DNA from: an uncultured Trueperaceae bacterium
GTDB taxonomy: Bacteria; Deinococcota; Deinococci; Deinococcales; Trueperaceae
Direction: 5' to 3'
Length of the DNA: 9,496 nt
Assembly (NCBI GenBank): GCA_937907415.1
Contig: CALCHY010000321.1
Location: forward strand, 1 to 9,496
This document shows positions 1 through 9,496 of the stretch, piece after piece. How positions within the stretch are numbered: position 1 is the stretch's first letter; each line of letters opens with the position of its first letter. Made by a program: the position numbers and the translations under genes. The notes beneath the pieces are model-generated. The model saw only the letters and a list, made by a program, of their open reading frames with translations. It was not told where the DNA came from and ran no database searches.

Positions 1-2
1 GG

Positions 3-107
3 GCGGTGGTCGATGGCGCCAGGCCCCTCGAGGCGGCGAGCTCGGACTGGGCGAAGGTGGCTGCGACTTGGCAGCGCGAGTTCGCGGAGTTCAGGGAGAA
101 GGGCTAG
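3..107 (+). CDS. 3' end of an unrecognised upstream gene (partial)
   Basis: The frame is open from the window edge to a TAG at 105-107 and encodes the last 34 residues of a protein, ending QREFAEFREKG. The tail is charged and looks helical (DWAKVAATWQREFAEF). By hand count 31 of its 34 sense codons end in G or C, far above the other two frames, which is why I take it as coding. I do not recognise the family and the rest of the gene lies outside the window. It is followed by about 770 bases without a convincing protein gene, so it is probably not part of the cas operon. Confidence 0.55.
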   Translation, partial: AVVDGARPLEAASSDWAKVAATWQREFAEFREKG

Positions 108-185
108 GCGCGGTGCCGTGTTCCTGGCGCAGCTTAGGGTCGCTGCGGCTGGCGACCGCAAGCCCAAAGCGCGCTAGGTGGAGGC

Positions 186-211
186 AACAAAAAAACGCGC
201 TCTCGCGCGTT
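186..211 (-). terminator. Possible intrinsic terminator read on the minus strand
   Basis: Positions 194-200 (AACGCGC) pair perfectly with 205-211 (GCGCGTT) around a TCTC loop. Seven A's at 189-195 on the + strand become a T-run directly after the stem when read on the minus strand, which is the form of an intrinsic terminator. On the + strand there is no T-run after the stem. It could end minus-strand transcription coming from the mini-array near 449-535, or act weakly for the gene ending at 107. Confidence 0.45.
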
Positions 212-223
212 CGATATCTTCAA

Positions 224-237
224 CATACGCCCGTATG
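224..237. promoter_or_regulatory. Perfect 14-bp palindrome, possible operator
   Basis: CATACG (224-229) and CGTATG (232-237) form a perfect inverted repeat separated by CC, the size of a dimeric repressor site. On the minus strand it overlaps a possible promoter: TTGACG at 250-245, a 17-nt gap, and TATGTT at 227-222. That promoter would run straight into the stem-loop at 211-194, so its product is unclear. The palindrome is seen directly; the operator role is inference. Confidence 0.3.
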
Positions 238-407
238 CGGTATTCGTCAAGGGGTTGCAGGCGAGTGGGGGAAGTGCGGTGTGGAGTGGGTGGGGCGGGA
301 CATATGCGGCGAATCTCTCAGCGGCGTTAGGTGTCGCAGGGCTGGACTAGGGTCTGCGGAGAGGTGGTCGATCACAAGTGCTGACCTGGGGCCGGCGCCG
401 CTCGGGA

Positions 408-443
408 GGTGGCGACCAAGCCGTTAACGCTACGGCCGCCACC
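408..443 (-). other. Strong hairpin just 3' of the second degenerate repeat
   Basis: GGTGGCG (408-414) pairs with CGCCACC (437-443), and GCCGT (420-424) pairs with ACGGC (432-436). The two helices total 12 bp, with a 5-nt bulge (415-419) and a 7-nt loop. Read on the minus strand it begins 5 nt after the second repeat-like element, so it could form or protect the 3' end of a short guide RNA. There is no U-run after it, so a classical intrinsic terminator is not shown. Confidence 0.4.
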
Positions 444-448
444 AAGCG

Positions 449-477
449 AGAGTCATCCCTGCGATTGCAGGGAAGTC
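449..477 (-). repeat. Degenerate I-E repeat, distal copy (psi-R2)
   Basis: Aligned by its stem to the array repeat at 9468-9496, 18 of 29 positions agree. TCCCTGC (473-467, minus strand) pairs perfectly with GCAGGGA (462-456) around a 4-nt AATC loop. This is the 7-bp, 4-nt-loop geometry of I-E repeats recognised by Cas6e. Repeat positions 9 and 18 have changed together from C-G to T-A, preserving the pair. The 3' handle has drifted to ATGACTCT, which fits a copy needed only for cleavage and not for a new guide. Confidence 0.75.
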
Positions 478-497
478 ACGAGGCTGCGCACGTACGT

Positions 498-526
498 TGG
501 TTCATCCCCTCGCCGTGGGGAGGTTC
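498..526 (-). repeat. Degenerate I-E repeat, proximal copy (psi-R1)
   Basis: Aligned at its 3' end, 16 of 29 positions agree with the array repeat, and a one-base gap improves the match in the 5' arm. TCCCC (521-517, minus strand) pairs with GGGGA (509-505) around a 7-nt loop. The 3' handle ATGAACCA is close to the array's GTGAACCG, keeping the TGAACC core that Cas5e and Cas7e hold in a mature crRNA. Conservation is strongest exactly where a functional 5' handle would be needed. Confidence 0.72.
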
Positions 527-536
527 GGGCAGCCCG
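526..536. promoter_or_regulatory. Small inverted repeat at the predicted mini-array start
   Basis: CGGGC (526-530) and GCCCG (532-536) are a perfect inverted repeat around one base. It lies between the predicted start of the minus-strand guide RNA and its first repeat. It may be a small operator or simply part of the transcript; nothing else supports a role. Confidence 0.2.
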
Positions 537-541
537 GCAGG

Positions 542-570
542 ATTGTAACGCCTGGCATTTTGGCTCTTGA
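542..570 (-). promoter_or_regulatory. Predicted promoter of the minus-strand mini-array
   Basis: The minus strand reads TCAAGA (570-565), a 17-nt gap and TACAAT (547-542). The -10 box matches the sigma-70 consensus at 5 of 6 positions; the -35 box is weak at 3 of 6. The gap from the -10 box to the first repeat is 15 nt, similar to the 17 nt in the real CRISPR leader. Its -35 overlaps the TTGACA of the opposite promoter, so the two probably compete for polymerase. Confidence 0.45.
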
Positions 571-596
571 CATTGAGGACGCTGGAGTAGCATTAT
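567..596 (+). promoter_or_regulatory. Predicted promoter of the cas operon
   Basis: A perfect -35 box TTGACA (567-572) is followed after 18 nt by CATTAT (591-596), which matches 4 of 6 consensus bases including the key A2 and T6. Transcription would begin near 602-604 and run through a leader of about 275 nt into cas3. The predicted mini-guide target (606-621, PAM 622-624) sits directly on the start region, so bound Cascade would block initiation or early elongation. Confidence 0.55.
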
Positions 597-605
597 GACG
601 ACTAG

Positions 606-624
606 GGCTACGCACGTACGTCAT
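606..624 (-). promoter_or_regulatory. Predicted Cascade target (protospacer plus ATG PAM) for the mini-guide
   Basis: The minus strand at 621-606 reads ACGTACGTGCGTAGCC, identical to the first 16 nt of the spacer-like segment at 497-482 except T for C at position 12. I-E crRNAs do not pair at every sixth position, so position 12 is a tolerated mismatch. The three bases 5' of the protospacer (624-622) read ATG, an accepted I-E PAM in E. coli. Beyond position 16 the match is lost, so pairing should allow binding without a full R-loop. The spacer locus itself is preceded by CCA and would not be self-recognised. Confidence 0.7.
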
Positions 625-863
625 GGCCCGATATAGGTGAAGATGAAATGCGTTGGGAGTCACGTTAGATACAGCCTCCATGCCGCCGTCGCATCCGTCC
701 AGGTACAGAATAGGGTGAATAGCTCGTCATCGGCGGATCAGATCATTGTCGACATCTGGTTCGCCTCTTGGTCCACGGACGCTTCGCAAGACGTGCGGGT
801 AGGTTCTGACGTGCTCCACGACCGTGGCGGCTCCAGCTTCAGTTTTCGGGCAAGCACCTCTTC

Positions 864-870
864 AAGGGGG
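864..870 (+). promoter_or_regulatory. Ribosome binding site deciding the cas3 start
   Basis: AAGGGGG lies 8 nt before the CTG at 879 and is the only Shine-Dalgarno-like sequence at a usable distance from an in-frame near-cognate start in the open stretch 810-965. It supports initiation at CTG rather than at the ATG at 966. Confidence 0.5.
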
Positions 871-878
871 CGGCGCCG

Positions 879-3566
879 CTGAGCCGGGCCAGGGAACTCT
901 GGGCAAAGTCCAGCAAGAGCGGTCCTCCGGGCCACTCCCTCCTTGGGCACCTCCTAGACGTCGGCATGGTGGCGCGCCATTTGCTAATGGACGCGAGGCT
1001 CCAACGGGCGCTCAGGCGTTTCGCGCATGACCTTCGGTTGGAGGTGGAAGCTGCGAGGAGGCTGTTGGTAATCCTCGCCGCACTTCACGACATAGGAAAG
1101 GCCTCGCCAGCGTTTCAGAGGAAGTGGCCGGACGGTGCGCCCCCGGAGGCGCTGCAGAGGCCGGTACCCGACATACCGCACGGCACGATCAGCGCCATGA
1201 TCCTCAAGGACTGGCTCCGCGAGAGAGGGATGCACTCAAGGGAAGCCGAGACGCTCGCTCACGCCGTAGGCGTCCATCACGGAGTCACCTTGCCTCCCGG
1301 TCTCAGCACTACCTTCGGCCTCGATTCCTCGGGTGTTGGTAGCGCACCCTGGGAAGGCTGGCGGAACGAACTCATTGAGGCGGTCGTAGAGGCCTTCGGG
1401 CCCCTGCCCGAGCTAACAAGTCACAAGGGCTATAGAAGGTCCTCAAGTTGGGGATTTCAGGCTGGCCTAACGTCCGTGGCGGACTGGATCGGCTCCGGCC
1501 TCCCGTTTGCGCCGGAAGTATCTGACCGAACGGCTTACATGGCAGCCAGGGAGACGGACGTGGCCCTCCGCCTCGAGGAGATCCAGTGGCCGCGTGACGG
1601 GCAGTGGTGGGTTGAGCCCAGCTCCCCTGAGATGTTCGAATCTTGGTTCCAGGGTACGCGCGCTGGTGAGGATCCAAGACCGCTTCAGATCGCAGTTCAA
1701 GAGGCTCTGGTCCAATCGCGTGGGGAGCAGTTCCTGCTAGTAATCGAGGCCCCCATGGGAGAGGGCAAGACCGAGGCGGCCTTCTTCGCCGCTGTCCGTG
1801 CCGCGACCGCGCGAGGACTCTACATCGGGCTTCCCACACATGCGACTAGCGATGCACTTCACTCTCGGCTGACGGCGTTCGTAGAGAAGCACGCGAGTAG
1901 GACGGTGCACATAGCGTTGGCGCATGGGGCGGCGAGAGCGCTTGCCGCGCTTGGCGGGGTTACTGCCTCGGTGGTCCTAGCGCCCAAAGTAGACCTGGCG
2001 CTGGACCCGGTAGATGAGGAAGGCGCCGAGGCTGCGGCGACGCAGGCTCTCTGGCTGACGACCGGCCGCAGGGAGTTACTGGCCGAACTCGGTGTTGGGA
2101 CCGTGGATCAGGCGCTGTTGGCTGTCCTTTCTACGAAGCATCACTTCGTAAAGCTATGGGCGCTTGCCGGGAAGGTGGTCGTTCTCGACGAAGTCCATGC
2201 CTACGACCGCTACACCTTCGGACTGCTTGAGGAGCTGGTCGAATGGCTGGCGAGCATGGGCTCCACGGTGATCGTGATGAGCGCGACACTGCCGCAAGGC
2301 ACCCGTACGGCCTTAGTGGAGGCGTTTCAAAGGGGCACTGAGTCCGAGGTGTTGCCACCGGACTCCGCTCTTTACCCTCGGCTCACGCTCGTAACGCGAG
2401 ACCTGCTGCTGACGGTGCCATTCGCTGCATCAAGAGACTCGAGAATGGGCATTGCGGCGGCACCCTACCCGATAGAGGATCTGGGACACTTCGTGTTGGC
2501 ACTGCAGGCCGGTGGCGGCGCGGTAGGGGTCATCGTGAACACGGTTTCGAGGGCGCAAGAATTGTACGAGTTCTGCCGAGCCGCGGGCGCCGAACCCCTC
2601 CTGCTTCATGCCCAAATGCCCCTAGGCGAGCGGCAGAACAGGGAAGCGGAACTGATAGAGAGGTACGGCGTAGGGTCCAAGGGTCAGCGTGACGGGCTTG
2701 TGATTGCCACGCAGGTCATGGAGCAAAGCCTAGACGTCGACTTCGACGTGCTCGTATCGGACATGGCGCCGGTCGACCTGTTGCTGCAGCGCGCGGGCAG
2801 GATGCACCGTCATCTGCGCGGCGGCAATCGCGGTCCTCACAACTCCGCGGTGCTCTACATAGCCGGCTTTGGCGACCTTGAGTATGGACCCCATCTAGAT
2901 GCGATGGAGGGTATCTACGACTCCTACATCATGTGGCGCAGTTGGGCTGCCCTCACGATGAAACCGGAGTTGCGGCTGCCCGATGACATCGATTCGTTGG
3001 TTCAGCAGGTATACGACCTGGACTCTTCCGCCGACCTTCCACCAAGTGTCTCGGTAGACATGCCCGTTCTGGCGCAGGCGTTCAACGCGCGTTTGGAGGT
3101 GATGGATGCCGCGGTAAAGGCTTGGGTCGTGGGTTCGCCGCTAGAGCCCGCTTCACAGGCCTGGCGGAGTGTGTCTACTGACGACGAAGGACGTGAGCGC
3201 GGTAAGGCCATCGCCCCGACCCGCTTGGGTGAGCGCCGCCTAACCGTGATACCGGTCTACTCCTCGAAAGGGCGGTGGCGTTTGCCTGGGAACGACGAAA
3301 CTGTGTCTAGCACGGCTGGCCGAGTTTCGGCAGATTGGTTGCGCGCCGCGCTCATGTCACAGATCGGAGTCAGAAATGTGGCCCTTATCGCAAAGCTCGA
3401 GGCGCACCAGAGGCCAGAATGGTGGACGAAGCACAAGCTACTGCAGTTCTTATTTCCGCTAGAACTTGGTGACGATGGTACTGCGGTCGTAGACGCGAAC
3501 GTGCGCCTAGATTCGGAGTTGGGTCTGGTCATCGGCCGGGCGCTCTCGCGGGGGAGGGGACGATAG
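879..3566 (+). CDS. cas3: CRISPR-associated nuclease-helicase Cas3 (type I-E), probable CTG start
   Basis: Cas3 is recruited by target-bound Cascade and unwinds and degrades the DNA. Numbered from CTG 879 (895 aa), the HD nuclease has GHSLLGHLLD with H19 and H24, H70-D71 in LHDIGK, H133-H134 in VHHG and D202 in VADW. The SF2 helicase follows: Walker A GEGKT 294-298, DEVH 437-440, SAT 468-470 and QRAGRMHRH 637-645, then a C-terminal domain. The first in-frame ATG (966) would delete H19, H24 and the ELWAK segment typical of Cas3 N-termini. The in-frame stretch 810-965 has no ATG, GTG or TTG, so CTG 879 with AAGGGGG 8 nt upstream is the best start. A programmed or sequencing frameshift from the overlapping frame ending at 882 is the alternative. 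Two bases separate it from cse1. Confidence 0.95.
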   Translation: MSRARELWAKSSKSGPPGHSLLGHLLDVGMVARHLLMDARLQRALRRFAHDLRLEVEAARRLLVILAALHDIGKASPAFQRKWPDGAPPEALQRPVPDIPHGTISAMILKDWLRERGMHSREAETLAHAVGVHHGVTLPPGLSTTFGLDSSGVGSAPWEGWRNELIEAVVEAFGPLPELTSHKGYRRSSSWGFQAGLTSVADWIGSGLPFAPEVSDRTAYMAARETDVALRLEEIQWPRDGQWWVEPSSPEMFESWFQGTRAGEDPRPLQIAVQEALVQSRGEQFLLVIEAPMGEGKTEAAFFAAVRAATARGLYIGLPTHATSDALHSRLTAFVEKHASRTVHIALAHGAARALAALGGVTASVVLAPKVDLALDPVDEEGAEAAATQALWLTTGRRELLAELGVGTVDQALLAVLSTKHHFVKLWALAGKVVVLDEVHAYDRYTFGLLEELVEWLASMGSTVIVMSATLPQGTRTALVEAFQRGTESEVLPPDSALYPRLTLVTRDLLLTVPFAASRDSRMGIAAAPYPIEDLGHFVLALQAGGGAVGVIVNTVSRAQELYEFCRAAGAEPLLLHAQMPLGERQNREAELIERYGVGSKGQRDGLVIATQVMEQSLDVDFDVLVSDMAPVDLLLQRAGRMHRHLRGGNRGPHNSAVLYIAGFGDLEYGPHLDAMEGIYDSYIMWRSWAALTMKPELRLPDDIDSLVQQVYDLDSSADLPPSVSVDMPVLAQAFNARLEVMDAAVKAWVVGSPLEPASQAWRSVSTDDEGRERGKAIAPTRLGERRLTVIPVYSSKGRWRLPGNDETVSSTAGRVSADWLRAALMSQIGVRNVALIAKLEAHQRPEWWTKHKLLQFLFPLELGDDGTAVVDANVRLDSELGLVIGRALSRGRGR

Positions 3567-3568
3567 AC

Positions 3569-5134
3569 GTGGGGAGGTCTTTTCAGCTACTCGATGAGCG
3601 CTGGATCCCTGTTGAATCGTTGGAGGGGGCGTTCTCTGAAGTAGGTCTGCTCGAGGCGTTCGAGCGGGCAGCCGATTTACGGCGAATCGTACATGCTTCG
3701 CCTTTGGTGACAGTTGCGCTGTACCGGCTGCTCTTCGCCATCTTTCACCGGGCGGCACCTGTTGCCAACGACAACGAGTGGGGCGACCTGTGGGACTCCG
3801 CTACGGCTCATAAGGATGCTGGGTCCTACCTCGAACGCTGGCGGCACAGGTTCGACCTCTTCTCGGAGACAGAGCCATTCTGGCAGGTGCCGGATCTGAG
3901 TGACGAGCTCGAGACAATGTCATGGGCGAAACTGGCCGCGGAGCTGAACGACAACAACAACAAGGTGCTGTTCGACCACACGCGCACGAAACAAGATAGG
4001 CCGTTGGCCACGCCGGCTCAGGTGGCGCGACTATTGGTGGCATGTCAAGTGATGTCTGTAGGAGCTGGCAACAGCCCCACGGGCTTCAACTTGAACGCGG
4101 TGCTAGCTACTTCACTGGTTGTGATACCCGAAGGCGCGAACCTGCGAGATACGTTGCTGGCCAATGCGCGCGTTGGGAAGTCGAAGGGCGATGCACCCGT
4201 ATGGGAACAGCCCGTACCCAGGGCAGCCGACATCCTTGAGGGGAATTCGCAGAAGCCAGCTCGCACGTACCCTTACGTTGGGTTGGCCAGGCGGTTGACC
4301 TGGCTCACCAGGGCGATAAAGATTGTGCCACCCGGCAGTTCGGAGTTTGTCGAAAGCGTGATATTCGGGGCGGGCCGCAGGCCGGCGGTCCCGGATGGAG
4401 ACCGTGACCCATGGGTGGCCTATCGCGTCTCGAAGGAAGGGAAGTGGGTGCCTCAACGCCTCGACCCTACTCGGGCGATTTGGAGAGACCTACAGGCGAT
4501 AGCCATACGAACGGACGATGACAAGCGGGCTGTTGCCCCGGTTCTTGCGAGCCTTGGCGCTATCCGAGAAGGCGACCGCCCGTTCCCAGACTCCTGGTCC
4601 CTATTGTTGGGCGGCCAGGCGGCGGACAAAGCGAAACTCGAGGGCTGGGGACAGGAGCGTTGGCAGCTGCCTGACTCTGCGCTACGAAACCCGCGGGTTC
4701 GAGAGGCGTTGTCGCTTGGGACGGCGAGTGCGGAAGAGGGCGGGCACCAATTAGGCAAGATTCTGCTCGCGCTGGCCAGAGATGTCTTGGCGCCCGACCC
4801 ACAGACGAACCCCGATTTGGCCGCAGTGCGCATGTTGGCGAGTGGTTTCCCCGCCCTCAAAACGTACTGGTCTCGGCTTGAGGTGGCATTCTCGCACTTC
4901 TTGCACCGCCTGGGTGAGGCGAACGGGGATTCAGATCTTATCGAAGGAAGCGCCCTGAAGAACTGGTACAGCGACACCGCGCTGGCCGTGAAGGCTGCCA
5001 CGGACGCCACGTATGGCGTGATGGGGAAGGATGCACGCGCTTTGAGGGCATGGGCTAGGAACTCTCCGAAGCTCGAGTTGCTTGCGAGTAAGTACCGCCG
5101 CATGGCGAGAGAAGCCGAAGGGAGCAAGGGGTGA
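3569..5134 (+). CDS. cse1: Cascade large subunit Cse1 (CasA, Cas8e)
   Basis: Cse1 is the large subunit of the I-E Cascade complex. It reads the PAM, starts DNA unwinding and docks Cas3. The 521-residue product has the family's N-terminal signature FQLLDERWIPV (5-15), HRFDLF (93-98) with PFWQV (103-107), and the LFDHTR to GAGNSPTG stretch (134-172) expected around the DNA-contacting loop region. The GTG at 3569 is preceded by GGAGGGGA with 8-nt spacing and follows the cas3 stop by two bases, so the two are probably co-translated. Its stop overlaps the cse2 start (GTGA). Length is normal for the family. Confidence 0.95.
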   Translation: MGRSFQLLDERWIPVESLEGAFSEVGLLEAFERAADLRRIVHASPLVTVALYRLLFAIFHRAAPVANDNEWGDLWDSATAHKDAGSYLERWRHRFDLFSETEPFWQVPDLSDELETMSWAKLAAELNDNNNKVLFDHTRTKQDRPLATPAQVARLLVACQVMSVGAGNSPTGFNLNAVLATSLVVIPEGANLRDTLLANARVGKSKGDAPVWEQPVPRAADILEGNSQKPARTYPYVGLARRLTWLTRAIKIVPPGSSEFVESVIFGAGRRPAVPDGDRDPWVAYRVSKEGKWVPQRLDPTRAIWRDLQAIAIRTDDDKRAVAPVLASLGAIREGDRPFPDSWSLLLGGQAADKAKLEGWGQERWQLPDSALRNPRVREALSLGTASAEEGGHQLGKILLALARDVLAPDPQTNPDLAAVRMLASGFPALKTYWSRLEVAFSHFLHRLGEANGDSDLIEGSALKNWYSDTALAVKAATDATYGVMGKDARALRAWARNSPKLELLASKYRRMAREAEGSKG

Positions 5135-5706
5135 CGGAATCATACTTGTCTGACCGCTTCGCGCAGCACCTGCGCAAGGTGCTGGAGGGGCCTGGACGTG
5201 CGCGTGCTGTCTTGCGCAGATCTCTGACTTTGCCACCAGGGGAGTCAATGGCGGCAATACCCTACGTCGAACCCTTCGTGGCCACCGCGGGCAAATGGAC
5301 GAGGAAGTGCGCCTACCTGGTTGCTGGAGTCAGCGCCGCTTCAGGGGTTGATGTCGGCAGCGGAAGCTTGGGTGCTGCAGCTGCTCGCTTGAGGCTGAGG
5401 ACTGATTCTAAGTCGGTTGAGACTCGTTTCCTGGCCTTGCTTGACGCTGACGAAGAGCAGTTGCCGTATCGGTTGCGCCAGATGATCGTGCTTATGGCTG
5501 GGAACGAGATCGCGCCCGATTGGGCTGGACTCTTCCGGGACCTCAGGCGGTGGCAGGCACCAGGCAGGCCCGCGCAGATCATGTGGGCACGCGACTACTA
5601 CACCGTTGTCGGCTCTGCGGGAGTCGAAGACGTTGAGGGTGATGAAGGTCCCGACGACGAGCTGAGTGAAACGAGATTCAACCCAGATGAAGTTCAGGAA
5701 GATTAG
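5131..5706 (+). CDS. cse2: Cascade small subunit Cse2 (CasB)
   Basis: Two Cse2 copies form the inner belly of I-E Cascade and stabilise the displaced strand and R-loop. The 191-residue product carries the family pattern: Y-L-V-A-G near residues 54-58, a central SVETRFLALL with DEEQLPYRLRQ, and a late DWAGLFRDLRRW with WARDYY. After that comes an acidic tail (VEGDEGPDDELSE) that is longer than in E. coli and may be disordered. The GTG start overlaps the cse1 TGA by four bases, indicating translational coupling, and GGGAGCAAGG lies just upstream. Confidence 0.92.
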   Translation: MTESYLSDRFAQHLRKVLEGPGRARAVLRRSLTLPPGESMAAIPYVEPFVATAGKWTRKCAYLVAGVSAASGVDVGSGSLGAAAARLRLRTDSKSVETRFLALLDADEEQLPYRLRQMIVLMAGNEIAPDWAGLFRDLRRWQAPGRPAQIMWARDYYTVVGSAGVEDVEGDEGPDDELSETRFNPDEVQED

Positions 5707-5715
5707 GAGGGGCTA

Positions 5716-6843
5716 ATGTCCACGAGAATTGAGTTCCACGTACTTCAATCCTTCGCTCCAAGTAACCTCAACCGCGACGACACCGGTAGTCCTAAAGACG
5801 GCGTTTTTGGCGGGGTCCGAAGGGGACGCATCTCGTCGCAAGCGCTAAAGCGTGCTGCGCGCCTCCACATGCGAGATGGCGGCCTGATACCTGCCCATGC
5901 GGGCTCGACTAGGACCAAGAGGCTCGTTCACCTTATCGAGAAGCGTCTCGAGGGGCGCGTGGATCCCGCTGTGGCACAGGGCGCGGCGGTGAACGTACTG
6001 GCGAAAGTTGGAAGCCAGAAGAAGATTCAAGCCAAACCGGCTAAGGGCGGTTCGGAGCCGCTAACCGAGTATTTACTGTTCGTTGGAGAAAGCGAGCTTG
6101 AAGAGATCGTCGAAGTAATAGCAGCGCAGGCGGAGGAACTCAGCAACCCCAAGTCCAAGGCGTTGGACGCCGCAGGGCTTGCGGTCACCGAGATCCTGAA
6201 ACGTAAGGGTTCTGGCTCCGTGGACGTAGCGCTTTACGGGCGGATGCTCGCGAACCTGCCAGAAGGTAACGCCGATGCAGCTTGCCAGGTGGCGCACGCG
6301 ATCAGCACACACAGGGTTGACCGCGAGTTCGACTATTTCACGGCCGTGGACGACGAGAACCCTGCCGACTCGAGTGGTGCTGGCATGATCGGAACTGTCG
6401 AGTTCAATAGCTCCGTCTACTATCGCTATAGCGTTGTGGACGTAGATCAACTTCGGGCGAACCTCGCTGATGACAAGGTGCTCACCGCCAACGCTGTAAG
6501 TGCCTATGCGCGCTCGGTCGTTGAGTCCGCTCCGAGCGGTAAGCAGAATACCTTCGCGGCGCACAATCCCCCTTCTGTCGTATTGGTAACCGTGCGTCGC
6601 CACGGCGGTCCGGCGAACCTCGCGAACGCGTTCGAGAAGCCGGTGAGCCAGGCAGGGGGTGGGCTTGTTGAAGCGTCGGCCACGGCGTTGAGAGAGTACT
6701 GGCATAAGCTCGACGGCGCTTATGGAAAGGCCGACGACGCGTGGGTTCTCGACCTCACGGGGACGTTCGATTCCGACAAGGGAGTGACGCGCGTTGCGTC
6801 ACTAGACGAGCTGGTTGCTGCTGTCAGGGCAGCATCGATGTGA
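5716..6843 (+). CDS. cas7: Cascade backbone subunit Cas7e (CasC, Cse4)
   Basis: Six Cas7e copies wrap the crRNA and kink it at every sixth nucleotide. The 375-residue product opens with the family signature HVLQSFAPSNLNRDD (8-22) followed by GGVRRGRISSQALKRA (32-47), which contacts RNA. It has the later blocks GTVEFNSSVYYRY and NTFAAHNPPSVVLV typical of I-E Cas7. The ATG follows AGGAGG at 5705-5710 with 5-nt spacing, the clearest ribosome binding site in the operon, matching the need for many copies. The kink pattern matters for the mini-guide upstream, whose one mismatch falls at guide position 12. Confidence 0.96.
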   Translation: MSTRIEFHVLQSFAPSNLNRDDTGSPKDGVFGGVRRGRISSQALKRAARLHMRDGGLIPAHAGSTRTKRLVHLIEKRLEGRVDPAVAQGAAVNVLAKVGSQKKIQAKPAKGGSEPLTEYLLFVGESELEEIVEVIAAQAEELSNPKSKALDAAGLAVTEILKRKGSGSVDVALYGRMLANLPEGNADAACQVAHAISTHRVDREFDYFTAVDDENPADSSGAGMIGTVEFNSSVYYRYSVVDVDQLRANLADDKVLTANAVSAYARSVVESAPSGKQNTFAAHNPPSVVLVTVRRHGGPANLANAFEKPVSQAGGGLVEASATALREYWHKLDGAYGKADDAWVLDLTGTFDSDKGVTRVASLDELVAAVRAASM

Positions 6844-6847
6844 ACGC

Positions 6848-7513
6848 ATGACGTGGACCCTGAGGATGCGTTTCGCTGGGCAGATGCAGAGCTGGGGTAC
6901 AAGGTCTAGGTTCGATAACCGAGACACTGAGGTAGCGCCGTCGAAGAGCGGAGTGCTAGGCCTTGTGGCGGCGGCTCTCGGGAGGGATCGGACCGAAACG
7001 GTTGTTGACCTGGCGGCCCTCAGACTCGGCGTCAGGATCGATAGAGAAGGCGTGCTGCTGAGTGATTATCACACTGCCCAGGACGTCATTAGGGCGGATG
7101 GCGGTGGTCGCCAAGCAACGGCGCTCTCAGTGCGTCACTACCTAGCAGACGCTGTGTTCCTCGTCGGCCTTGAGAGCGAAGAGAGGCCGATTCTGGAGAC
7201 AATTGACCAGGCGCTCGAGAACCCCCACTGGCCTTTGGCGCTAGGGCGTCGATCGTTCCCGCCCTCAAGGCCGGTGCAGCTTCGGCCTCCAGAGGACCCG
7301 ACTCCTATCTTCGAGGGGCCGCTCAGAGAAGCCCTTTCGGAGTGCCCGCCTCTGATTGAGACACCGGCTGGCCCCGACGTGAGATACGTCGTTGAAGATG
7401 AGACTGGAGACCAACTCTGGTTCGATCAACCGACCTCGACCTTCGCGGAGCGCACGTTCACCATGCGCAAGGTGCGCATCGTGGTCGCGCCGTGGGGGGA
7501 AAAATGGTCTTGA
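6848..7513 (+). CDS. cas5: Cascade subunit Cas5e (CasD)
   Basis: Cas5e holds the 5' handle of the crRNA and caps the Cas7 backbone next to Cse1. The 221-residue product begins with the RAMP strand and FAGQMQSWGTRSRF (9-22), then PSKSGVLGLVAAALGR (31-46), both characteristic of I-E Cas5. I chose the ATG at 6848 over an earlier in-frame start at 6815. The earlier start overlaps cas7 by 29 bases and adds residues without family resemblance, whereas 6848 starts four bases after the cas7 stop. There is no strong ribosome binding site, so translation is probably coupled to cas7. Confidence 0.94.
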   Translation: MTWTLRMRFAGQMQSWGTRSRFDNRDTEVAPSKSGVLGLVAAALGRDRTETVVDLAALRLGVRIDREGVLLSDYHTAQDVIRADGGGRQATALSVRHYLADAVFLVGLESEERPILETIDQALENPHWPLALGRRSFPPSRPVQLRPPEDPTPIFEGPLREALSECPPLIETPAGPDVRYVVEDETGDQLWFDQPTSTFAERTFTMRKVRIVVAPWGEKWS

Positions 7514-8109
7514 GCCGATTGGAACTCAACCTGGAAGACCCAAGCGCCAGGCGGGACCTAGCTAACCCGTACGAGATGCACAGCACGCTCATGCGGGTGG
7601 TTGAAGAGAGCGCAAGTAGACCCTTGTGGCGCATCGAGCAACAACTAGACGTCTCGATGACGGCCTCCATCCTTATACAGAGCGAGGGCGTTCCGGACAG
7701 CGAGGCACTTCGGGCCTATGCTCCGAAGTATTTCCGGAAGTTCGACTCTAAGCAGAACGTTCTCCTAGAGAATTTAGCGAATGGGCAGGTCCTAAACTTC
7801 AGGCTACGGGCAAACCCAACGGTCACGCGTGAAGGTAAGAGGCACGGCCTGGACGATGTTGACGAGCAACTAGCGTGGATTGAGCGGCAAGTAACAAGGG
7901 CAGGCGGTGAGCTGTTGGGCGCTGAGACCAGCAATCCCGCCAGACTCAAGATGGTAAGGCGCAGCCAGAGCAGTCCTATCGTGATCCTTGGCGTGACGTT
8001 CGATGGTCAACTCAGGGTTCTGGATGACCTACTTCTGAAGGTGGCCGTACGAACAGGGATTGGACCCGGCAAGGCGCTCGGATTCGGGCTCTTGACGCTG
8101 TCGCGATGA
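7504..8109 (+). CDS. cas6e: crRNA-processing endoribonuclease Cas6e (CasE, Cse3)
   Basis: Cas6e cuts the pre-crRNA at the base of the repeat stem and stays on the 3' hairpin in Cascade. The 201-residue product starts VLSRLELNLEDPSARRDLANPYEMH. With the ATG at 7504 the catalytic pair falls at Y23 and H26, the same numbers as in the well-studied Thermus thermophilus enzyme, which supports this start over the GTG at 7492. The C-terminal Gly-rich loop GIGPGKALGFGLL is present. GTGGGGGA lies just upstream, and the gene overlaps the end of cas5 by 10 bases. It is the enzyme expected to process the degenerate repeats at 449-526. Confidence 0.96.
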   Translation: MVLSRLELNLEDPSARRDLANPYEMHSTLMRVVEESASRPLWRIEQQLDVSMTASILIQSEGVPDSEALRAYAPKYFRKFDSKQNVLLENLANGQVLNFRLRANPTVTREGKRHGLDDVDEQLAWIERQVTRAGGELLGAETSNPARLKMVRRSQSSPIVILGVTFDGQLRVLDDLLLKVAVRTGIGPGKALGFGLLTLSR

Positions 8110-9047
8110 GCAAGAAGAGGGCCATCGACCTCCGTAGTTTGCCGAAGCTGCGCGATGGCCTTACTTACGTCTTCATTGAACGAGGTCGAGTCGAGCGTGA
8201 CGACTCGTCGATCGCCTGGTACGGGCCTGATGGGGCCGTTTCTTTGCCGGCGGCCGCCCTAGCCACACTATTTCTCGGACCGGGTGCGACCATCACGCAC
8301 TCTGCCATGATGGCGCTGGCCGACAATGGGGTAACCGTTGCGTGGGTCGGTGAAGCCGGTGTGCGGTTCTATGCTGGTGGAGTCGGTGAGACGCGCTCGG
8401 CGAAGAACGTTGAGAAGCAAGCGATGGCCTGGGCCGATGAAGCAAGGAAGCTTGAGGTCGTGCGGCGGCTATACACATTTCGGTTCGGTGAAGACCTCGA
8501 TCCAGACCTCACGCTAGAACAAATCCGGGGAATGGAGGGAGTACGAGTCAGGACCGCATACAGCCGAGCCGCGAAAGTGCATGGGGTCAAGTGGCGAGGG
8601 CGCAATTACAGGCGTGATGGCTGGGACGAGGCCGACCCCGTCAACCGGGCCCTCTCTGCCGGCAGCGCATGCATGTACGGTCTATGTCACGCTGCTATCG
8701 TCAGCCTTGGCTTCTCGCCCGCCTTGGGGTTCTTGCACTCTGGCAAGCAGCTATCTTTCGTTTACGACATAGCGGACCTCTATCGGACTGAAATAGTTGT
8801 GCCCGCGGCGTTCGCCGCCGCCGCGGTGCCGGGTGAAGAGATAGAACGGCGGGTGCGACTCACGCTCCGTGACCAGTTGAGGAAGTCACGGTTCCTTGAG
8901 CGTGTGGCGCGGGACCTGCATCGCCTTTTCGACCTTGACCCGGACTCAGTTGATCCGTACGAGGCTGACGCGGCCAAGCCCGGAGATATCTGGGATGGTG
9001 ACAAGTTCGTGCCGGGCGGAGTTGCTTATGGTCGTAGTGACACTTGA
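8106..9047 (+). CDS. cas1: CRISPR integrase Cas1 (type I-E)
   Basis: Cas1 with Cas2 captures protospacers and integrates them at the leader end of the array. The 313-residue product has the metal-binding residues of the family: E144 in GMEG, H211 in GFLHSG, and D221 with D224 in SFVYDIAD. They match E. coli E141, H208, D218 and D221 with a constant shift of three. The N-terminal beta domain (about 1-100) and the alpha-helical catalytic domain are complete. The ATG overlaps the cas6e stop (ATGA). The adaptation module is therefore probably active. Confidence 0.97.
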   Translation: MSKKRAIDLRSLPKLRDGLTYVFIERGRVERDDSSIAWYGPDGAVSLPAAALATLFLGPGATITHSAMMALADNGVTVAWVGEAGVRFYAGGVGETRSAKNVEKQAMAWADEARKLEVVRRLYTFRFGEDLDPDLTLEQIRGMEGVRVRTAYSRAAKVHGVKWRGRNYRRDGWDEADPVNRALSAGSACMYGLCHAAIVSLGFSPALGFLHSGKQLSFVYDIADLYRTEIVVPAAFAAAAVPGEEIERRVRLTLRDQLRKSRFLERVARDLHRLFDLDPDSVDPYEADAAKPGDIWDGDKFVPGGVAYGRSDT

Positions 9048-9348
9048 GCTTGTGCCTCCCCGCCTTCGTGGGGGTCTAACTCGGTGGCTTACCGAGATTG
9101 GCCCCGGCGTATTTGTAGGACGGGTCAGCTCACTCGTTAGAGATCAGCTGTGGGAGCTCATCATTACGGAGGCCGCGGCGACAGGCAGAGCGGTGTTGGT
9201 TAATAGAGCGGCGAACGAGCAAGGATACGAGATCCGAATGCACGGCGACTCGAAGAGACGAGTGGTCGATGTGGATGGTCTACAGCTAGTCGCTAACAAG
9301 CACGCGGCATGGCTCGACTGGCGCGACGATGAAGAAGACATCAACTAG
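9028..9348 (+). CDS. cas2: CRISPR adaptation protein Cas2 (type I-E)
   Basis: Cas2e is the central dimer of the Cas1-Cas2 integration complex. The 106-residue product has the I-E signature VVVTLELVPPRLRGGLTRWL, then GPGVFVGRVSSLVRDQLW and the later QGYEIRMHGD. I chose the ATG at 9028, giving a 20-base overlap with cas1. An earlier in-frame GTG at 8896 would add residues that are only the shadow of cas1. GGAG at 9018-9021 sits 6 nt before the ATG. An acidic tail (DWRDDEEDIN) ends the protein. It is the last gene before the leader. Confidence 0.95.
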   Translation: MVVVTLELVPPRLRGGLTRWLTEIGPGVFVGRVSSLVRDQLWELIITEAAATGRAVLVNRAANEQGYEIRMHGDSKRRVVDVDGLQLVANKHAAWLDWRDDEEDIN

Positions 9349-9467: not shown

Positions 9468-9496
9468 GCCGTCCCCGCGCGCGCGGGGGTGAACCG
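9468..9496 (+). CRISPR. First (leader-end) repeat of the I-E array
   Basis: The last 29 nt have the I-E repeat form and align without gaps to the E. coli repeat. They contain GCCG, then TCCCCGC and GCGGGGG arms around a GCGC loop, ending TGAACCG. Cas6e cleavage after position 21 would leave the 8-nt handle GTGAACCG (9489-9496). The 5' boundary at 9468 is set by length and could be off by a base or two. The window stops at the end of the repeat, so no spacer or second copy can be seen; the call rests on form and position next to cas2 and the leader. Confidence 0.88.

Follow-up and report, generated by a model that had tools for sequence, protein, structure and literature searches.

A degenerate repeat-guide-repeat unit upstream of cas3 as a candidate CreR of a type I-E CRISPR-Cas locus

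Results

The cas locus and the start of cas3

The window (the whole stretch of DNA analysed here, 9,496 nucleotides) carries a complete-looking type I-E locus, in which eight cas genes, all on the plus strand, are followed by a CRISPR array repeat (Table 1). The genes cse1, cse2, cas7e, cas5e and cas6e score above the NCBIfam cut-offs, so that the genes for a cognate Cascade are present. In the list of open reading frames of the window the cas3 frame has no ATG, GTG or TTG upstream of position 966; homology to Cas3 begins near position 879, and the homologue P0004 starts MSRARALWAKSS. We propose that translation of cas3 probably begins at the CTG at 879. This CTG overlaps the TGA (880–882) that ends an upstream ORF of about 80 aa (637/643–882), the ATG of which at 643 is immediately preceded by an AGGTGA motif, and a coupled leader ORF, a CTG start or a frameshift are all possible arrangements within the 5' region of cas3 (637–966). 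The leader situated between the guide target described below and cas3 (604–878, 275 nt) contains this same ORF.

Table 1. Positions of the features of the window, numbered from its first nucleotide.
Feature	Position	Strand	Remarks
Intrinsic-terminator-like hairpin	186..212	-	8-bp stem, GAGA loop, T-run; candidate end of the guide transcript
psiR2, second degenerate repeat GACTTCCCTGCAATCGCAGGGATGACTCT	449..477	-	Cas6e-type 3' hairpin of perfect 7-bp stem and 4-nt loop; decayed handle (TGACTCT)
Guide (psi-spacer) ACGTACGTGCGCAGCCTCGT	478..497	-	20 nt
psiR1, first degenerate repeat GAACCTCCCCACGGCGAGGGGATGAACCA	498..526	-	3'-most 8 nt ATGAACCA equal the crRNA 5' handle; UCCCC/GGGGA stem upstream
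Weak predicted guide-RNA promoter TCAAGA-17-TACAAT	542..570	-	8/12; start predicted near 535; absent from the stricter scan
Predicted cas promoter TTGACA-18-CATTAT	567..596	+	10/12 consensus positions; start predicted near 603, at the target edge
Guide target	606..621	-	15/16 identical; sole mismatch at guide nt 12
PAM ATG (CAT on the plus strand)	622..624	-	Immediately 5' of the target
cas3	879..3566	+	First gene of the operon; CTG start at 879 probable; first ATG 966
cse1, cse2, cas7e, cas5e, cas6e, cas1e, cas2e	3569..9348	+	Overlaps or gaps of at most 9 nt; complete type I-E set
First CRISPR array repeat GCCGTCCCCGCGCGCGCGGGGGTGAACCG	9468..9496	+	Last nucleotides of the window

A degenerate repeat-guide-repeat unit upstream of cas3

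Two degenerate repeats, psiR1 and psiR2, flank a short guide in the intergenic region upstream of cas3 (minus strand, 526–449). A preliminary description of this DNA had reported two minus-strand repeat-like elements around a 20-nt segment, and these coordinates hold, refined to 526–498, 497–478 and 477–449. The distance of 350–430 nt to cas3 given there is true only if the CTG at 879 is the start, because there is no in-frame ATG, GTG or TTG before 966. Relative to the array repeat (9468–9496), ungapped identity is 18/29 for psiR2, as previously described, and 17/29 for psiR1 rather than the 16/29 first counted. However, other non-array 29-mers of the window score as well or better, with three at 19/29, three more at 18/29 and several at 17/29, so that repeat identity is at background level and, having been offered earlier as support for the unit, is rejected here as evidence for it. 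With these identities and a 20-nt guide the unit does not have the near-identical repeats and spacers of about 32 nt of a canonical CRISPR array.

The structures of the two repeats are more informative. The psiR2 hairpin has a z-score of -5.04, none of 200 shuffles being equally stable, which bears out the description of a perfect stem (7 bp, 4-nt loop) in the distal copy; the claim that the proximal copy keeps the 5' handle is also correct, ATGAACCA lying in psiR1 behind a 5-bp stem. The psiR1 hairpin, with this stem and a 7-nt loop, has a z-score of only -0.82, and psiR1 may be cut poorly given so short a stem. Folded in full, the 106-nt RNA shows no unusual stability (z -0.67), and an Rfam search of window positions 1–1000 gave no matches at E-values up to 1. 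A single guide RNA draws its handle from the first of two repeats and its 3' hairpin from the other, and psiR1 and psiR2 therefore each retain the part that would be used.

Predicted transcription signals lie on both sides of the unit. The TTGACA-18-CATTAT sequence is the best cas3-facing promoter near the target and was found in two scans, one of them stricter; when 2000 windows were drawn at random from the surveyed regions, 19 held a promoter of at least 10/12. The predicted guide-RNA promoter is divergent from the cas promoter and overlaps its -35 box. The hairpin at 186–212 may end the guide transcript, since no minus-strand ORF of at least 60 aa is situated between 212 and 737 (525 nt before the hairpin). 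A scan of 180–980 found no terminator-like sites on the plus strand.

The guide matches the predicted start of the cas operon

Nucleotides 1–16 of the guide, adjacent to the handle, match the minus strand from 621 to 606 at 15 of 16 positions, and pairing ends after nt 16. Nine nucleotides separate the -10 box from the target downstream of it, which therefore occupies about +3 to +22 relative to the predicted start. The segment had previously been said to match the cas promoter, and the match itself stands, although the site is just downstream of the -10 and outside the promoter boxes. Three features were omitted from the earlier reading, namely the ATG PAM, the sense of the nt-12 mismatch and the terminator-like site on the minus strand.

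The sole mismatch falls at a position that is flipped out in type I-E Cascade, in which every sixth crRNA nucleotide is flipped out and unpaired according to the available passages of PMC5904413. ATG is a PAM proposed for the E. coli type I-E system, a set that may not be the window system's own, and is listed there among PAMs that earlier studies termed optimal (PMC5904413). According to the same passages, an optimal PAM with as few as 5 seed pairs often suffices for binding by E. coli Cascade, affinity peaks with a match of no more than 18 bp, and Cascade bound at promoters can repress, whereas interference requires extensive pairing (PMC5904413). A partial match of 16 nt would thus suit binding without cutting. 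Binding does not assure repression, since off-target Cascade binding is without effect on local gene expression in E. coli, in the wording of a section heading, and AAG is ranked above other PAMs (PMC5904413, in the passages available).

To judge the level of chance we define a full unit as a handle of at least 6/8, a stem of at least 4 bp, a second stem of at least 5 bp and a target with at most one mismatch in nt 1–11. Such a unit with a target is found once in window positions 107–878, and no other pair of 16-mers in positions 108–966 reaches 15/16. Among 3000 dinucleotide shuffles of positions 107–878 there were no two-repeat units with a PAM-bearing target and no matches of 15/16 or better, and four units with a target but without a PAM. 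The observation of a repeat-guide-repeat unit with a match at the predicted cas start is confirmed.

Relatives of the locus

Members of the window's own clade (Cas3 41–76% and Cas1 63–93% identical) are known as proteins without DNA context, apparently metagenomic; among them the Cas3 proteins P0002–P0007 are 57–75% identical. In genome contigs the Cas3 relatives do not exceed 40% identity in the best segment, among the best 80 of 569 confirmed stretches, and in viral contigs there are 12 Cas3-related loci of at most 37% identity. The exact pattern (part of the handle plus the guide) has no matches in the viral contigs. Scanning these by Cas1 alignment gave one locus (L093), a 138-kb IMG/VR contig whose Cas1e is 48% identical to that of the window. 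Whole-genome samples of Actinomycetota (396 genomes), Chloroflexota (400), Acidobacteriota (297), Deinococcota (111) and one Burkholderiales order (250), with groups named after the loci used as centres, yielded distant relatives that were used in the survey below; the best score, 807.5 bits on a scale uncalibrated for members of the window's clade, was in Deinococcota. The survey was enlarged with family or order samples of 200, 6 and 121 genomes around G256, G431 and G245 respectively.

Survey of cas3-upstream regions

The survey drew on 286 sequences, 285 of them with a Cas3 match (L093 being without), which after removal of duplicates and of regions shorter than 150 nt gave 270 distinct regions including the window, not all of them type I-E. 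A strict two-repeat filter left 122 candidates in 78 of the 270 regions, and allowing targets at most one mismatch anywhere in nt 1–11 gave 35 rows. Nine of these have a PAM of the chosen set (AAG in four, AAC in four, ATG in one) and correspond to eight independent pairs, because L083 and L094 are one system; a pair by these criteria thus occurs in only 8 of the 270 surveyed regions, the window included. The strict filter did not favour nt 6, unlike the loose filter used earlier. The PAM set was chosen with knowledge of the E. coli PAMs and is not blind, as hits with AAG, ATG and AAC had been seen in the loose-filter run.

The other 26 rows have other PAMs. Fourteen of them, from L209, L217 and L235, are judged to be array-derived, since the majority of their targets repeat with a period of about 61 nt. 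Of the remaining 12 (one each from L095, L101, L105, L162, L177, L219 and L248, two from L234 and three from L158), ten have one mismatch, which is at nt 6 in a single case (L158, PAM GCG). A smaller strict run (193 regions, 68 candidates) gave seven rows with I-E-like PAMs, none with six control PAMs and eight with other PAMs. The loose filter (193 regions with partial masking, 3142 candidates) was dropped because about 45 chance hits are expected; L090 and L091 in that run were repeat arrays. In a first survey of 92 loci and the window (380 candidates, no array masking), the 16/16 hits at L013, L017, L024 and L081 were rejected as false leads because they fall within arrays, next to them or in stretches of N.

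A six-nucleotide footprint in the candidate guide-target pairs

The eight pairs are those of the window, L124, L168, L083 (= L094), L105, L099, L229 and L269. The seven pairs outside the window have different guides, the two-repeat layout and AAG or AAC as PAM; L105, L229 and L269 are from one family, yet their guides are unrelated. Three of the eight have AAC, which is absent from the PAMs named in the available passages of PMC5904413. Nucleotides 1–5 and 7–11 match in all eight pairs, which is partly an effect of the filter, whereas nt 6 matches in two and nt 12 in none. Further along, matches are seen at nt 13 in five pairs, nt 14 in six, nt 15 in four and nt 16 in two, and beyond this they are near chance with few exceptions. 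Six of the eight pairs have one mismatch in nt 1–11, always at nt 6, for which the probability is (1/11)^6 if placement is random over the 11 positions. The match pattern over the eight pairs is that of Cascade pairing. Promoters at the target score 9–10/12 for the window, L168 and L083, and 5–7/12 for L124, L105, L099, L229 and L269; as the latter scores are at background level, these five targets are not established as cas promoters.

Individual loci provide further observations. At L269, situated upstream of a cas3 in the family of G256, guide and target are on opposite strands and pair in blocks 1–5, 7–11, 13–15, 19–23 and 25–30, with mismatches at 6, 12, 18 and 24 together with 16, 17, 31 and 32; nowhere else in the survey is the 6-nt footprint as clear. 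L083 (2347–2454) and L094 are a Lactobacillus intestinalis I-E locus, L094 being on a plasmid, and the locus is also in an IMG/VR contig. The target of its two-repeat unit mismatches guide nt 6, 12 and 16 and is close to a cas3 promoter, and from its layout this unit looks like another CreR. At L168 (Deinococcota) the psiR2-like stem leads into T-rich sequence and could double as a terminator, and the target overlaps the -10 of a TTGACA-17-TAAGCT promoter.

Discussion

Liu et al. 2023 is reportedly the primary paper on CreRs. These are the cas-regulating RNAs of mini-CRISPRs in the accounts available (PMC12737573, PMC12948488, PMC13131331), where they are described as mediating autorepression in types I-B, I-E and V-A (PMC13131331), and as recognising the cas promoter, being outcompeted by crRNAs and being relieved by anti-CRISPRs (PMC12737573). 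The window holds a mini-CRISPR in which degenerate repeats flank a guide and which adjoins the cas operon; the guide has limited complementarity, starting from nt 1, to the cas promoter region, and a PAM and Cascade genes are present. As far as those accounts go, the likeness includes a crRNA-like mini-CRISPR guide, partial complementarity to the cas promoter region, Cascade as the repressor, a type (I-E) that is among those reported, and no toxin gene recognised, the window genes scanned being cas. The window differs in being a different type I-E lineage with its own guide sequence, an ATG PAM, a 20-nt guide and a divergent promoter, and in being known from sequence alone.

We propose that the unit is a type I-E CreR, a guide that would direct Cascade to repress cas transcription without cutting, and give this a probability of roughly 0.86. 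The preliminary description had read the unit in the same way, as a CreR or mini-CRISPR guide, and several lines of evidence support it: the PAM, the seed pairing with its flipped-base pattern, the repeat parts retained, the overlap with the predicted start of a complete-looking I-E operon, and the same layout with unrelated guides at other loci. As CreRs have been published for types I-B, I-E and V-A, the unit would be a further CreR and not a new kind.

From these features we infer the transcription, processing, repression and sensing role of the unit as follows. A minus-strand RNA would begin near 535, and either cleavage by Cas6e or simply initiation at the promoter would give a crRNA-like guide, the processed form consisting of the handle AUGAACCA, the 20-nt guide and the psiR2 hairpin. 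Cascade loaded with it would find the ATG PAM and pair guide nt 1–11 and 13–16 at 621–606, beside the cas start, about 16 nt of pairing being sufficient to bind and too short to cut. Bound Cascade would block RNA polymerase, with repression of the whole cas3–cas2 operon. Canonical crRNAs competing with the guide complex would raise cas expression, as would anti-CRISPRs that inactivate Cascade and so remove the guide complex.

A second model, which we consider improbable, is an antitoxin of the CreTA kind, in which the guide represses a toxin RNA (CreT) in the leader (604–878), instead of or besides cas, with addiction to Cascade as the outcome. The 275-nt leader with its ORF (637/643–882) between the target and cas3 leaves room for such an element. 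The type I-B CreA, as described in the available text of PMC9458426, shares with the unit two degenerate repeats around a guide, a partial promoter match and repression by Cascade; its psiR1 is also more diverged than psiR2 (PMC9458426), and in the window it is psiR1 that has the weaker stem. The target of CreA in that text is a toxin RNA and not the cas genes (PMC9458426). Against the model, the start of the leader ORF is without tandem rare-arginine codons by eye; moreover, the promoter at the target faces cas3 and the scan of 180–980 gave no terminator-like site on the plus strand, so that the cas genes would come under control either way.

That the unit is a non-functional relic of a former CRISPR array carrying a self-targeting spacer is more improbable still. 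Degenerate repeats and a guide of 20 nt, not about 32 nt, are what such a remnant might show, but the decay is non-random, psiR1 keeping the handle and psiR2 the stem, the 16-nt pairing is interrupted at nt 12 alone where a captured spacer would be expected to match over its full length, and the pattern recurs at seven further loci. It is least credible that the two 16-mers are operator copies for a DNA-binding repressor, a protein-binding site being conceivable because both contain the 8-bp palindrome ACGTACGT, since the stretch they share is asymmetric, reaching 8 nt beyond the palindrome in one direction and none in the other, and ends exactly at the handle or PAM, and no regulator gene is among the window ORFs scanned, the eight scanned being the cas genes.

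Other RNAs invite comparison. The long-form tracrRNA is said to autoregulate Cas9, a report attributed to Workman 2021. Like the proposed CreR, the long-form tracrRNA and the Francisella scaRNA, in the accounts available, are CRISPR-derived RNAs whose partial match makes an effector a repressor, although these are type II and act without Cas6 or Cascade. The phage Racr RNAs are likewise solitary repeat-like RNAs that engage Cas6 or other Cas proteins, but in the passages available they are virus-encoded inhibitors and have no promoter-targeting guide (PMC10651486).

It is tempting to extend the CreR reading to the survey as a whole. Type I-E CreRs could form a class over several phyla, in which selection keeps only the nucleotides paired in Cascade, in 5-nt blocks with every sixth position drifting, a proposal we make tentatively and would not yet bet on. 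On the same tentative reading the guide of the window, at 20 nt two 6-nt units below the usual 32-nt spacer, may build a short Cascade that binds without recruiting Cas3. Among the titles and abstract beginnings listed there was no report of a 6-nt footprint for CreRs, and we claim no priority.

The feedback design is already described for other CRISPR systems, and the window would add another type I-E case, from a lineage not met among the named genomes searched, of an autoregulatory guide whose pairing pattern suggests Cascade as its reader. Such a case has a bearing on the way in which a costly immune system stays low and senses its crRNA load or anti-CRISPRs. If there is indeed a class with a 6-nt rule, regulatory self-targeting guides would be separable from chance by their sequence, and the footprint (nt 6 and 12 free, nt 1–5 and 7–11 kept) is a sequence-only test that could help to find such guides in many genomes.
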